64,000 nucleotides of DNA. Source: Tachypleus tridentatus (lineage: Eukaryota > Arthropoda > Merostomata > Xiphosura > Limulidae). This document shows positions 12,997-60,238 of this stretch, piece after piece. The notes under the pieces were generated by a model. It was not told the DNA's origin. It ran no database searches and was given only the letters and a program-made list of their open reading frames with translations. Both the position numbers and the translations under genes were made by a program. The stretch spans positions 20,005,276 through 20,069,275 of the forward strand of contig NW_027467782.1 in assembly GCF_004210375.1 (NCBI RefSeq), read 5' to 3'. How positions within the stretch are numbered: the first letter of the stretch is position 1; every line of letters starts with the position of its first letter.

Positions 12997-14126
12997 TTAT
13001 ATATCTGTGTTGTAGTAAACAGTAACATTATGAGTGAAATGAAAGACATTATTTAAACCTAATTTGCTTTCTTGAAAGTTTTGACTGCCAAGGTCGGATC
13101 CTCGACGTGGTGCTACTTTTGACAGCGCTAATAGAACAAACGAAACAATTCCACGCATGAAGCTTGGAATGAAAGATAAATATATATAAGGATTAATACA
13201 GCTGTTACCGGCTGAGATGATGACACTGTTTTCTTGTCGAAGACTTTTGGATTTCCAAAGGCCATTACCATCTCCTGGATGGTGCATAGCAAATTGGTAA
13301 TCATAATGGCAACAAATGTGGCCGTAGCCATCATAAGTGTCTTCACCTTTGCACGAGGAAGGGCCGACGCTGTCTGTTGGCAATTTCTCATTACTGATGG
13401 TTGTCGCCTTATGTCTAGTAAAATTCGTGAGTACAAGGCCACCAAAAGACTACATGGGATGGTGAATACAGTTAGAAACACAACATCCAGGTACAGCTGG
13501 CGATGTGACCTTGGATACTTCTGGGTGTAAAAGATAGAGCCACATAAATACTGATTTATACTTGAAGTACTGAATGAAATAAAGTGACCACTCACGCTCC
13601 CAAGGAAAGTTTTCACGAAGAAATGTGCGGGTTTAAGGCGTGGTCAAGTGTGTTCAGGCGTGCGACTCGTAATCTGAGGTTTGCGGGTTCGCATCCCCGC
13701 CGCGCCAAACATGCTCATCCTTTCAGCCGTGGGGCCTTATAATGTGACGGTAAATCCCACTATTATTTGGTAAAGAGAAGCCCAAGAGTTGGCGGTGGGT
13801 GGTGATGACTAGTTGTTTTCCCTCTAGTCTTACACTACTAAATTAGAGACGGCTAGCGCAGATAGCCCTTGAGTAGCTTTGTGCGAAATTCACAAATCAA
13901 ACGATCCAGGGTTATACCAACCAACATGTAAGTAAACGAAACTAAAGTACTCTGAATGAACAGCAAAAGAATCTCCGTTCTACCCGTAACTTTCCATATT
14001 ATCTGTGACGTCACTGTCACCATGGTAACTAGCAGGTCAGCTACAGAAACGTTGAGAAACAGGGTTCTAGGTTTTGAGCGACGAAGCCGGTGAGAGATAC
14101 GAAGTTTCCAACAAACCAAAACGTTT
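12997..14126 (-). pseudogene. Class A peptide GPCR interrupted by a SINE
   Basis: A splice acceptor (tttatttttccag) ends at 14127. The exon starts in the TM1 GN motif (NVLVCWKLRISHRLRRSKPR) and continues with TM2 LNVSVADLLVTMVTVTSQII and TM3 LVSFTYMLVGITLDRLI, where DRL stands for DRY. SINE-A follows directly. Beyond it come ECL2/TM5 (RQLYLDVVFLTVFTIPCSLL), a basic loop 3, TM6 (MMATATFVAIMITNLLCTIQ) and TM7 SAGNSCINPYIYLSF with the NPxxY motif, ending at 12997. The ECL1 Trp/Cys stretch is shortened and about 40 residues of loop 2/TM4 are missing. One frame change lies at about 13225, in an A run between TM6 and TM7. The layout is that of the vasopressin/GnRH/AKH neuropeptide-receptor group. 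It is most likely a dead paralogue of an intact receptor elsewhere. Confidence 0.8.
13627..13902 (+). mobile_element. SINE-A inside the GPCR copy
   Basis: Head gcgggtttaaggcgtggtca, body and tail gtgcgaaattcacaaatc. It lies opposite to the receptor's reading direction, between TM3 and ECL2. No clear duplication flanks it, so a deletion probably accompanied or followed the insertion. Confidence 0.9.
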
Positions 14127-14881: not shown

Positions 14882-15005
14882 TCTCCACTAACGCAGCGTT
14901 ATGCCAAAAGACTTATAACGCTGGAATCCTGGTTTCGATACTCGTGGTGGGCAGAGCACTAATAGCCCATTGTGTAGCTTTCTGTGTATTTACAAACAAA
15001 CAAAC
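14882..15005 (+). mobile_element. SINE-C
   Basis: ggtttcgatactcgtggtgg, gcccattgtgtagctttctg and a tail of repeated caaa units. The head is partly degenerate. Confidence 0.85.
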
Positions 15006-21139: not shown

Positions 21140-21335
21140 TTTGAAGGCTGTTAATGCTTGAAAACTGTATTTCAATACCTGTGATGGGCACGGCCCAGAT
21201 ATCCGTTATTTACACTGCTTCCCCAACGGCACAGCGGTATGTCTGCGTACTCCCACCGCTAAAACTGGGTTTCAATACCCGTGGTGAATAAGCACAGATA
21301 GCCCATTGTGTAGCTTTGTGTTTAATCACTAACAC
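21140..21335 (+). mobile_element. Two SINE-C copies in tandem
   Basis: A degenerate copy (tttcaatacctgtgatgggc) is followed by a better one (ccccaacggcacagcggtat ... gcccattgtgtagctttgtg). Confidence 0.75.
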
Positions 21336-21830
21336 GCAAAACACTTAGAATGAAATTATTTACTTAGTTTGTAAAACACTATAGCTAAGTTTCTTATTAT
21401 TCAAACTAGTAAAAGAAGCGAATTACTTTAAGATGAACCAACAAAACAAAGCGTATAACATTTATCAATACAAATTCATACTACAGGGTGAATTTAAAGA
21501 AACCATTATTGGAAATGATTATATCTTAAATAAGTAATACTTGTTCTAGGGGAATTATGCTTCACCAGATAAGAATATTGATATTTATTTGTACAGGTAC
21601 AAGATGACTCAAAAACTGTCTTAGTAAGTGTTTAATATAACTTCTGTTATTCTTTATCAGAATATGAAACCTAACCCTAAATTAAGACACTGCAAGTATT
21701 ATCTATCCTGGACAATTTTCATTGATATCCTGAATAACGTTGATTCATCCTTAAAATTCCCTGGCCAGTATTCGTTGATCCTCACAATACCCCATAATAA
21801 AATAATGCCAGTCTGTTAGAGAAGCTCCCT

Positions 21831-32547: not shown

Positions 32548-32610
32548 TGTTTTGTTGTTGTTTTTTAAATTTTGCGCAAAGCTACATAATGATTATCTGC
32601 GCTTGCCGTA
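32548..32610 (-). mobile_element. SINE-A tail fragment
   Basis: aaattttgcgcaaagctaca, then ttatctgcgcttgccgt; it abuts the next minisatellite. Confidence 0.65.
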
Positions 32611-33654: not shown

Positions 33655-33702
33655 CGCAGATAGCCCTCTCATAGCTTTGCGTGAACTTCATAACAAACAA
33701 AT
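33655..33702 (+). mobile_element. SINE-A 3' end, 5' truncated
   Basis: cgcagatagccctctcatag, then cataacaaacaaatcc. Confidence 0.75.
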
Positions 33703-34852: not shown

Positions 34853-35043
34853 TATCCCGTGTCTCCGTTTATGAAGCTGATGGCAGGATATTTATTTATT
34901 CCGTTAGACCACGAGAATACATCTGAGGGGATCATAAATTTACATAATCTTCCGCAATATTGATAATATTTGTATGTCGTTGCTGGGGAAGCTGGTATCA
35001 GTTTCATAATTCCTACATATTTACCCAAAATAGACGTGATCAC
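34853..35043 (-). CDS. 191-nt internal exon of an unidentified gene
   Basis: Acceptor aattcatcttctag and donor GGGATA|GTGAGTACA bound a single open frame of 63 codons plus two bases: VITSILGKYVGIMKLIPASP, ATTYKYYQYCGRLCKFMIPS, DVFSWSNGINKYPAISFING, DTG. Both splice sites are strong, and balanced codon composition separates it from the AT-rich flanks. Two Cys and several aromatic residues suggest an extracellular or lumenal domain. The following exon was not found, and I do not recognise the family. Confidence 0.6.
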
Positions 35044-35100
35044 CTAGAAGATGAATTAGTGTTTTATTGTAACTAACTATTTGTAGCTACACTAAACGAT

Positions 35101-35287
35101 TGTTTTGTTTGTTTTGGAATTTCGCACAAAGCAACTCGAGGGCTATCTGTGCTAGCCGTCCCTAATTTAGCAATGTAAGACTAGAGGGAATGCAGCTAGT
35201 CATCATCACCCACCGCCAACTCTTGGGCTACTCTTTTACCAACGAATAGTGACATTGACCGTCACATTATAACGCCCCCACGGCTGA
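35101..35287 (-). mobile_element. Headless SINE-A body joined to Penelope-like sequence
   Basis: The body starts at the ttcagccgtggg position and runs to a ttccaaaacaaacaaaac tail. It is about as close to consensus as the full copy beside it. Confidence 0.85.
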
Positions 35288-35603
35288 ATTTTATTTTGGG
35301 TTTAAGTTGTTGTATAAGTAAGGTTTCTTTAATTTTGCGTTTGTTTATGTTTGTTTCTTTATTTAGTATTTGAGTGTTTTCTATGGTTATGTTGTGTTTA
35401 TTTGACTTGCAGTGTTCGAAAACGTGTGAAGGTGACTTTTTATTTTCTTTGAATCTGGTTTCCATTTTTCTACTTGTTTCTCCAATATAGAAGTCGTGGC
35501 AGTTATCACATTGTATTTTATAAATAATGTTGATATGGTGTTTGTCAGTGTAAAGGAACGCCATTATACCTATATTAATATAGATATAATTGTATTCAAA
35601 CAT
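35288..35603 (-). mobile_element. Penelope-like element, GIY-YIG endonuclease fragment
   Basis: The frame reads HHINIIYKIQCDNCHDFYIG, then ETSRKMETRFKE and KETLLIQQLKPKIKF. This matches the C-terminal GIY-YIG domain of Penelope-like retroelements (IYKI...C..C..FYIGET). It is truncated at the 5' side, with no reverse transcriptase. The open frame continues seven residues (SRGGVIM) into the SINE-A body before stopping, so the element's 3' end is joined to SINE-type sequence. Penelope-like elements are neither LINE nor LTR elements. Confidence 0.85.
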
Positions 35604-35887
35604 CGTTGTTTTTTGTTTTTGGAATTTCGCACAAAGCTACTCGAGGGCTATCTGTGCTAGCCGTCCCTAATTTAGCAGTGTAAGACTAGAGGGAAGGCAG
35701 CTAGTCATCACCACCCACCGCCAACTCTTGGGCTACTCTTTTACCAACGAATAGTGGGAATGACCGTCACATTATAACGCCCCCACGGCTGGGAGGGCGA
35801 GCATGTTTTTGCACGACTCGTGCGCGAACCCACGACCATCAGATTACGAAGCGCACGCCTTAACGCGCTAGGCCATGCCAGGCCTGC
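35604..35887 (-). mobile_element. Full-length SINE-A of the composite
   Basis: The tRNA-like head begins at the right duplication; the tail (ttccaaaaacaaaaaacaac) meets the Penelope-like fragment directly. Confidence 0.92.
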
Positions 35888-36547
35888 ACACTAAACGATA
35901 GAAGGAATAATATATGAAGTAAACACAACTGGAACAAAAATTCTATAATTCATTGTGTTTGTGATTGCCTAATAACGTTATTATGGACAGAACATAAAAA
36001 ATGATTTTGTTTTATTTTAAATTGGCCCTCTACGTTTTGCTGATTAAATTTCTGTGATTTACGATAATTTGATATAGTTGATTCATATTTAAATTAGGTG
36101 TTTTGAAGTAACTCAAAATTAATTCCCTCATCGTGAACCTTCGAAAAATATCCAGTTCCAAATGAGATAGAAGATTTACTATTCTTTGTAAGTTTGTAAA
36201 ACTTTTCTATATAAGTCATCATTTGTAATAACCGTTATTGTAAATTGTATTAATGTCTGAAATTTAAAATATATGTGTTTTGAAAAAGAAAATTGTGTGT
36301 ATCAATCTTGTCAGCAAATACCGAAATTTGGATACGTATCGACATTTATTTAACGTCTAAATATAAATTATAAATTAATTCAGGTTTAGGCCTATTTGAA
36401 ATTGTAACACCACACATTTTCAATGATCATAACGAAACGTAAGCGAGGAAAGCAATTGATAAAATGAAATGGGACACTGATGTTATAGACCCCAAGAAAT
36501 GATTTGCCACATGTATAAACTGAAACCAACCCAAATTTCTTTGAGGT

Positions 36548-41420: not shown

Positions 41421-41792
41421 CAAATTGATCTAGGCAGACAGTTGTTATCACAAACAGAGAGGTATTCTGTTTACTCTACGGCTTCTTAAATAAGTTGTAT
41501 TTTTACATATAAAGAAAATAATGAACAATGGATGATAGTAATATATGAATCTGATTCATTGTGAATGTCAGTTTTCATTTTGGAATCGTCAGCGTAGCTT
41601 ATAGTTTTAAAAAATATATCAGTTACAAATAAAATGTTTGTACTCTTATCCCATAGTTTCAAAAATGATGGACTTCGCTGCAAAGACGTAATAAAAGATT
41701 ACTATAACCATCTGATCACCTTTATTTCTTAACACTTTCTTTCCTTCCGGACATTTCTAGTTCAGTCCTCACCTGAGGAATTTAGGTTTAGT

Positions 41793-41972
41793 TGAGACGT
41801 TATAATGTACGATCAATCCCACTATTCGTTGGTAAAAGAGTAGCCTAAGAGTTGGCGGTGGCTGGTGATTACTAGCTGCCTTCCCTCTAGTCTTACACTA
41901 CTAAATTAGGGACGGCTAGCACAGATAGCCCTTGAGTAGCTTTGTGCGAAATTCAAAAAAAATAAACAAAAC
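41793..41972 (+). mobile_element. SINE-A, 5' truncated
   Basis: From gttataatgtacgatcaatc to tgtgcgaaattcaaaaaaaa. Confidence 0.88.
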
Positions 41973-42983
41973 GGACATTTCTTGTTATGTAATGATATCA
42001 ATATGTTATTCATATTTTTAGTATTTCATAGTTATCATATTTTATTTTGTTACTTAAAATAAGACAAAATTTAATTTCGCAAAAAAGCTCTGATTCTAAA
42101 CAAATAACCTGTTACTTTATCAATCTATGAAGCTAAGGTTAAGAAAACATTTAAAAGAGGCTCATTTGCTGTTATTCCTGAAAAAACGTAAGTTAATAGT
42201 AATTTACACAAAAAAACTTATTCATCCAGAAACGAAGTAGATCAAAGAACATAATCTAGCTGCTTTAAATATAAGTTATAATTACAGGTTTCTTATGTTT
42301 ATTCTTTTAAACGTAAAGATGATTTTCAAAGATGGTTGAACTAATAACTACACTAAGTAGTACCACTATTCAGGATAATATAAAAAACGTCAGTGGCGAA
42401 ATTAAAACTCTTTATGAAATTTACCCTATCGTATTTAAATGATTTCGGAACATCGTCGAATATTTAAAAACACTACGCCATGTGCAGTCATGTTCTCTCT
42501 GCTGTGTGTGCATCTGGACAATAACACTAAAATTTGCCTTGCAAAATGTTGCGTATCTATTTCTCTTCAATTCAAATTTTCTCTAACACTTTCAACTAAT
42601 GAATTTTAGCTTAATTCTTTTGTAATGCACTGCTAATTCTACATTAAGAAAAGTGTAATTGAAATTAGATTACTAAAAATTATTTTAACAAAGCACAAGG
42701 ATTAATTAAATCTAGCGGAGGAGAATTTTTGTTATGAACATTGAACATTACTGAATATTTAACAGAAAGTTACACAATAACTTACTTACATTGTGTCCAC
42801 TGATTGGATTTGAATCCTGGGTCTTTAGTAACTTATCGATATTCCACCGAGAGACATAAAAATAAACGTCGTGAAAACTGATATAATAATTAGTTACAAA
42901 TAACTAAAAAGTTATAATTTATTAATTTGATTAATGCTCACCAAACACATTTTAGTTAATGCTCTTCACATTTTGAAACTAGC

Positions 42984-47309: not shown

Positions 47310-47437
47310 AACCACAGTGTCTGCAAAGTATGTCTGCAAACTTATTCATTAAAAACCGGGTTTCGATACGAGTGGTGAGCAGAGCACAGATAACCCATTG
47401 AGTGGCTTTGTTCTTAATTCTAAATAAACAAACAAAA
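47310..47437 (+). mobile_element. SINE-C present only in E copy 3
   Basis: gggtttcgatacgagtggtg, tail aaataaacaaacaaaac; the matching place near 45905 in copy 2 lacks it. Confidence 0.88.
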
Positions 47438-54420: not shown

Positions 54421-54689
54421 TTTTTAATCAAGAAATTATTTTACATTCATAACAATATGTAAATGGTGTTCATTAAAACCTTTATTTTTAAATCAGTAGA
54501 TATTTATATATATAAGGAACAGAATGACTTGCACGACTAATCAACGTCATAACTCAGAAATAGCGTATTCATCTGCATATGATAAACGGTAACAAGAACA
54601 GAAAAATTTCACATTGGTACAATCGTCACTATGTAGCGTAAGGGTAGGAATACCACCTGTTTCTAATTTCAGACACAACTGTATTTTAT

Positions 54690-58872: not shown

Positions 58873-59027
58873 GGTTATTCTTTAACCAACAAATAGTGGG
58901 ATTAACCGCACCTTATGACGCCACTACAACTGAAAAGGCGAGCATGCTTTATTGCTACGGGGATGCGAACCAGCGACCCTCAGTTTACGAGTCGCACGCC
59001 TTAACCCACCTGGCCATGCGGGGCTGA
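58873..59027 (-). mobile_element. SINE-A 5' half
   Basis: accaacaaatagtgggatta to cctggccatgcggggc; distal body and tail missing. Confidence 0.85.
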
Positions 59028-59900: not shown

Positions 59901-59932
59901 ACGACATGTGCTTGTTGTCCTTTTGAATTAGA

Positions 59933-60130
59933 AGTATAACACTAGAAGGTAGGCAATTAATCATTACCACCTCTTTTGATACTCTTTTAGCAACGATTAG
60001 GGAGATTGACCTTAACTTCATAACATCCCGCGGCTGACAGGGCGATCATAGCTTGTGTAAAGGAGATACAAACCCACGACCCAATGACCAAAAGTCGGGC
60101 TCCACTAACCTCTTGACCATACCGGGCCCA
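59933..60130 (-). mobile_element. SINE-A 5' portion
   Basis: acactagaaggtaggcaatt to cttgaccataccgggccc. Confidence 0.75.
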
Positions 60131-60169
60131 ACCCATAGTTGTAAAAGTCGTAAATATAATCTCTTAGCA

Positions 60170-60238
60170 AGTTTGTTTGTTTGCTTTGGAGCTTCACGCA
60201 AACCTACACAAGGTCTACTTACGCTAGCCGTACTTAAT
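60170..60238 (-). mobile_element. SINE-A tail fragment
   Basis: tttgtttgtttgctttggag, ctacttacgctagccgtact. Confidence 0.7.

Follow-up and report, generated by a model that had tools for sequence, protein, structure and literature searches.

How did a fragment of a putative Penelope-like element (PLE) come to lie between two copies of the same SINE, inside a single short target site duplication? The arrangement occurs within the window, by which we mean the whole stretch of 64,000 nucleotides that was analyzed, and we refer to it as the block. Read in the sense of its minus-strand parts, the block opens with one copy of the duplicated sequence ACACTAAACGAT (35888-35899), followed by a full-length SINE-A with a tRNA-like head, body, 3' hairpin and A/C-rich tail (35605-35887). 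Next come a 313-bp non-SINE piece coding for a putative GIY-YIG nuclease fragment (35292-35604), a headless SINE-A made up of body and tail whose first bases are TTCAGCC (35101-35291), and the second copy of ACACTAAACGAT on the 3' side (35089-35100). The predicted 3' hairpins of the full and the headless SINE-A lie at 35629-35657 and 35124-35152, respectively, both on the minus strand, and a 28-bp palindrome with 14-bp arms and one mismatch (35563-35590) separates the tail of the first SINE from the nuclease core. Our answer, to which we give a probability of roughly 0.7, is that one event of target-primed reverse transcription, most likely by a LINE-type reverse transcriptase (RT) that serves SINE-A, created the block as a tripartite chimeric retro-insertion, with the PLE piece as a passenger.

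The case for a single event begins at the edges of the block. The same 12 bp stand at both outer edges of the three-part structure without a mismatch. When random pairs of 30-mers were drawn from the window, 15 of 19,702 had at least 12 identical bases anywhere, and a perfect 12-bp match placed at both outer edges is rarer than that. At the inner joints, the longest words shared across the three possible internal duplications measure 5, 5 and 4 bases, and random comparisons have a median of 5 and reach 7 at the 95% level; because these words lie within the random level, no internal duplication is seen. Independent nested insertions were considered as an explanation and rejected, as the inner joints carry no duplications. 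The sequence-only reading had described a perfect 12-bp duplication around the three parts with none at the internal joints, and this is confirmed; with the outer duplication perfect and none inside, a single insertion is therefore the natural reading. It had also placed all three parts in one orientation, which holds, since all are on the minus strand, and within that orientation the 5'-most SINE-A is full length and a SINE 3' end stands at the priming side.

These features can be compared with those of SINE-A elsewhere in the window, which its tRNA-type SINEs suggest to be eukaryotic. A search with the full copy returned 34 BLAST matches in 64 kb, both block copies counted, at least one of which (21291-21343) is the tail of a copy of a second family, SINE-B. 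The consensus of 20 aligned copies consists of a tRNA-like head, a body, a 3' end CAGATAGCCCTCGTGTAGCTTTGCGC, GAAATT and an A/C-rich tail that, judged by eye, varies between copies; the head contains what we take to be pol III boxes, placed by eye from the usual box motifs, and ARAGORN found no intact tRNA in the window. We scanned 27 SINE-A entries for duplications, made up of single and truncated copies with the block counted once, and by our reading 9 of them, block included, have credible flanking repeats of 8-15 bp. Matches of 8-9 bp, near chance at the width of that scan, were accepted because they sit at the element edges. A tenth repeat, of 13 bp with two mismatches, flanks the entry at 54685; the remaining 17 entries had no flanking match or only matches judged to be chance. 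The block's 12 bp is thus ordinary for SINE-A, given the 8-15 bp repeats of other copies. The two SINE-A bodies of the block are mutual best matches among the 20 aligned copies (93.5%), 12 differences between the two copies were listed, and the bodies carry minority states at 7 and 10 of 175 columns. Mutual best matching and similar minority-state counts are as expected if one event made both bodies. An age difference between the two bodies was considered as well and fails, with minority states at 10 versus 7 of the 175 columns and states unseen elsewhere numbering 2 versus 1.

We found no sign of SINE-A beyond this setting in the collections searched. Its body pattern had 0 matches in viral contigs, its tail pattern had 0 matches in GTDB contigs, and blastn against phages and plasmids gave no match. 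The horseshoe crab repeat literature, as far as its accessible text goes, for example that of PMC7815833, does not describe SINE-A. Two further minus-strand loci in the window depart from the usual form of the family. The SINE-A copy at 58873-59019 has neither 3' end nor tail, although it lies between 12-bp repeats that differ at one base (CATAATTAATCA/CATGATTAATCA); its reverse transcription possibly began within the RNA. At 59928-60238, a short spacer separates two SINE-A pieces that share one orientation (tail, spacer, head), an arrangement that is a possible source of read-through RNAs.

Target-primed reverse transcription copies the 3' end of its template first. In an insertion made by the usual RT of SINE-A, most likely of LINE type, that enzyme would start on a SINE-A RNA, at its 3' end and A/C-rich tail. 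By one route, it would leave this first RNA near the CGCCC/TTTCAGCC step, copy part of a PLE transcript and, last, jump to a second, complete SINE-A RNA, which would be copied to its 5' end. By another route, it would copy an RNA already holding two or all three of the parts, either a read-through transcript or a PLE copy with a 5'-truncated SINE-A in it. Along both routes the PLE piece would be a passenger in an insertion made by the RT of SINE-A, and the structure left by one read-through RNA with all three parts would be no different from that left by template jumps. The 5' limit of the headless SINE-A falls within two bases of the CGCCC/TTTCAG step in the SINE-A consensus, and a switch motif GCC*A/U has been published for one fungal LINE (PMC2104539); as that motif is short, the GCC(C)/T step near the joint is weak evidence. 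With TTTT occurring just once on the sense strand between the outer repeats (35422), pol III could have produced a read-through RNA. The sequence-only reading had combined one insertion and template jumping with a PLE as the driver of SINE-A: these tests agree with the single insertion and with template jumping as a possible way to it, and the PLE as driver went unsupported.

The block is a real tripartite chimera, and its kind has already been described. Double template switches during LINE reverse transcription have been held to produce tripartite chimeras in Magnaporthe grisea (WEIRD/Mg-SINE/MGL) and in mouse (B2/U6/L1), the fungal one with 14-bp repeats and two mouse ones with repeats of 15 and 16 bp (PMC2104539). 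As in these chimeras, three RNA-type parts are here fused directly within one perfect outer duplication, 12 bp long as against 14-16 bp there. The fungal WEIRD/Mg-SINE/MGL chimera resembles the block further in that its 5'-most part is full length and that the switch lies near a GCC/T step (PMC2104539). Unlike the chimeras presented in the accessible text of that study, however, the block has the same SINE at both ends, a PLE-like coding piece in the middle and no LINE sequence. A second likeness is to captures by Penelope elements of Adineta vaga, where foreign sequence likewise lies between direct repeats within one short duplication (PMC3846280). There the direct repeats are the pLTRs of the PLE, whereas here they are tRNA-type SINEs.

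The identity of the middle piece bears directly on where a PLE would be expected to end. Its open frame of 124 aa, P0001, had no Pfam match as a whole; the 79-aa core alone matched the GIY-YIG profile PF01541 with E = 0.01 and 16.6 bits, below the cut-off of 22.6, over profile positions 4-74 of 78, where the end at position 74 partly reflects our having cut the core at the joint. This match lends weak support to a GIY-YIG nuclease as the probable source of the piece. That the source was Penelope-like is our assumption from two motifs, CxxC...YIGET and LLIQQLKP. Residues Y39, Y50, R61 and E104 of P0001 stand at distances that fit the catalytic residues of GIY-YIG nucleases. The catalytic set is incomplete: the His site is occupied by N65, and the residue that takes the Asn position, at the joint, is K116 (E+12) or F117 (E+13). 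In I-BmoI the catalytic Glu and Asn are E74 and N87, and in Eco29kI they are E142 and N154 (PMC3161791). The joint coincides with the expected place of the catalytic Asn (Glu+12), which makes a natural PLE 3' end at this point unlikely. Judged by the spacing in these distant enzymes, the nuclease piece appears to be cut inside its coding domain; were the SINE body at this joint the natural end of a PLE, that element would probably be without its catalytic Asn.

The open frame of the nuclease piece does enter the second SINE body, as the sequence-only reading had observed. Since the frame stays open in the other direction as well, into the A-rich tail that ends the first SINE, an open frame across the joint means little. 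Of a PLE, the block contains a nuclease fragment only. In the window, blastn found no second copy of the nuclease piece, and the other tblastn matches were at chance level (E of 1.5 and above). A base-composition breakpoint at 35404, with 7 of 500 shuffles as high, was considered as the 5' edge of the PLE and rejected, as it falls inside the coding part. In pattern searches the PLE peptide matched 25 times among viral contigs and 112 times among GTDB contigs, 0 of these matches being confirmed by tblastn, and phages and plasmids gave none; a CxxCxxxYIGET pattern in three viral contigs was judged to be chance, occurring in frames of 31-35 residues. A sequence search of the PDB with the nuclease piece gave no match, PHROGs and NCBIfam returned weak matches only and no GIY-YIG family, and an AlphaFold2 model of the frame had a mean pLDDT of 38 and was set aside.

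A second source of evidence on the partner of SINE-A is the other tRNA-type SINE of the window. SINE-B, aligned from 15 stretches, some of them poor, has a different tRNA-like head and does not contain the SINE-A body; examples are found on the plus strand at 14885-15005, 21225-21345 and 47318-47433. The two families have in common the last ~31 bp and the A/C-rich tail, and not the body. In a comparison of their consensus sequences, the 31 columns before the tail score 21; the best of 500 single-base shuffles, which kept the SINE-B tail attached, scored 13. This segment, GCRCAGATAGCCC...TTTGYGC, followed by the A/C-rich tail, points to a recognized 3' end carried by both SINE-A and SINE-B. The 31-bp segment can be folded as a hairpin, and 37, 28 and 44 of 200 shuffles were equally or more stable, so its stability does not exceed that of shuffled sequence. 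In the alignment, 89.4% of cells are paired, a share reached by 41 of 500 shuffles, and the covariation score was reached by 57 of 500, counts that cover 23 of the 24 listed SINE-A hairpins and none of the 13 SINE-B ones. Neither the paired share nor the covariation score is thus in excess of shuffles, and the pairing does no more than suggest that structural selection may act on the 3' hairpin of SINE-A. The lack of excess stability and covariation counts against a LINE-type partner that recognizes this end.

Comparable 3' ends are known from Helicoverpa, in which HaSE1 and HaSE3 are SINE families with a common body or 3' tail; template switching has been invoked there for a 3' region common to several SINEs, and a tail common to a SINE and a LINE has been taken as the mark of the partner (PMC3272025). 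SINE-A and SINE-B resemble HaSE1 and HaSE3 in their common 3' end. In contrast to the partner-marking tails described there, as the accessible text presents them, the SINE-A tail is here matched to no LINE. The clear matches of a tail probe in the window were, by our reading, SINE-A or SINE-B, except for two tail-only pieces with no SINE body upstream (32563-32603 on the minus strand and 33657-33698 on the plus strand). These may be 5'-truncated SINEs or the end of another, partner-type element. No partner LINE with the SINE-A 3' end was seen in the window, a point against our reading, and the SINE-B tail pattern had 0 matches in viral contigs.

A second hybrid lies at 41756-41969 on the plus strand. 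Within one flanking repeat, CGGACATTTCT, which extends up to 15 bp with one mismatch, it combines a SINE-A copy (41798-41969) with a leader of about 36-40 bp upstream of the body that corresponds to neither the PLE piece nor a tRNA head. No convincing further copy of the leader is present in the window, and it has no Rfam match of note. It joins the SINE-A body at CGTTATAATG, whereas the joint in the block is at TTCAGCC. Occasional template jumps account better than a fixed PLE-SINE boundary for leaders that differ and meet the body at separate positions, in a comparison that rests on two hybrids, which is few.

The sequence-only reading had asked whether SINE-A is mobilized by a PLE RT, its body being the 3' end of a PLE or a PLE's flanking repeat and the block the result of a 5'-truncated PLE copy followed by a jump. 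As this would have it, the nuclease piece is joined in sense to the SINE-A body within one duplication, and PLE insertions can have duplications of 8-10 bp, flanking repeats and captured sequence (PMC3846280). The joint, however, appears by its spacing to lie inside the coding domain, at the residue expected from distant enzymes to be the catalytic Asn. SINE-A also ends in a predicted hairpin and then an A/C-rich tail, and one PLE tested in vitro begins reverse transcription in an AC-rich stem loop, but in that element the starting point is close to where the ORF begins and not behind the nuclease (PMC11167929). The body does not fare well as a PLE 3' end when SINE-B carries the same 3' end without it, nor does a fixed boundary between PLE and body when the second hybrid has another leader joined at another body position. 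We consider a PLE partner very unlikely on these grounds. Hammerhead motifs are a reported feature of PLEs. Rfam matches included none in the block or around the second hybrid (34900-36100 and 41740-41990, E up to 10) and none in the window as a whole (E up to 1), with models that may miss PLE hammerheads. This is a weak point against a PLE, also because hammerhead mutants of the PLE tested in vitro did not affect insertion there (PMC11167929). It is just as unlikely, in our estimation, that SINE-A and SINE-B both use a PLE RT, their 3' segment and tail imitating its AC-rich stem loop, with the PLE transcript copied between SINE RNAs. To our knowledge, no SINE has a partner other than a LINE, and a PLE link, if true, would be the first. 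From titles and abstracts in the open-licence literature we recognized no report of a SINE-PLE partnership, and the SINE-LINE partners of butterflies, in the accessible text of that study, include no PLE (PMC6685494).

Two other explanations dispense with a single insertion of all three parts. The block could have been assembled in several steps, in which a 5'-truncated SINE-A inserted into a PLE copy elsewhere and recombination or gene conversion between SINE-A copies then brought the two to a locus that already had a full SINE-A with its duplication. The outer duplication would stay intact, and the density of SINE-A in the window (34 matches in 64 kb) favors recombination, but two exchanges and a suitable donor would be needed, and the two block bodies are nevertheless closest to each other among the 20 copies; we regard this course of events as unlikely. 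Alternatively, the assembly could have joined two SINE-A copies around a PLE piece in error. High-identity repeats are prone to misjoining, and a misjoin within SINE copies would keep the outer duplication of a single SINE-A, yet two misjoins would be needed, both inside SINE-A copies. The block copies are not one copy duplicated by the assembler, because they differ at 12 places, and an assembly error seems to us highly improbable.

If the block did arise as one insertion by the RT of SINE-A with a PLE passenger, the RT complex of an abundant SINE can fix a foreign retroelement transcript between two SINE copies. Through such capture, SINE families could acquire heads or bodies that are new to them.

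The palindrome beside the inner joint is the sole one in the window with arms of at least 12 bp, at most one mismatch and a loop of 0, 2 or 4; in 20 random 64-kb sequences, one palindrome with arms of at least 14 bp was found. PLE repeats with palindromes at their 5' end have been published (PMC3846280). The palindrome may be PLE sequence, DNA that lay between two source elements, or the site of a jump.

Elsewhere in the window, two minus-strand open reading frames matched Pfam profiles. The frame at 13128-13643 matched the rhodopsin-type receptor profile PF00001 (E = 9.4e-06, below the cut-off), and that at 92-709 matched the 2-hydroxyacid dehydrogenase profile PF02826 (E = 2.3e-41).
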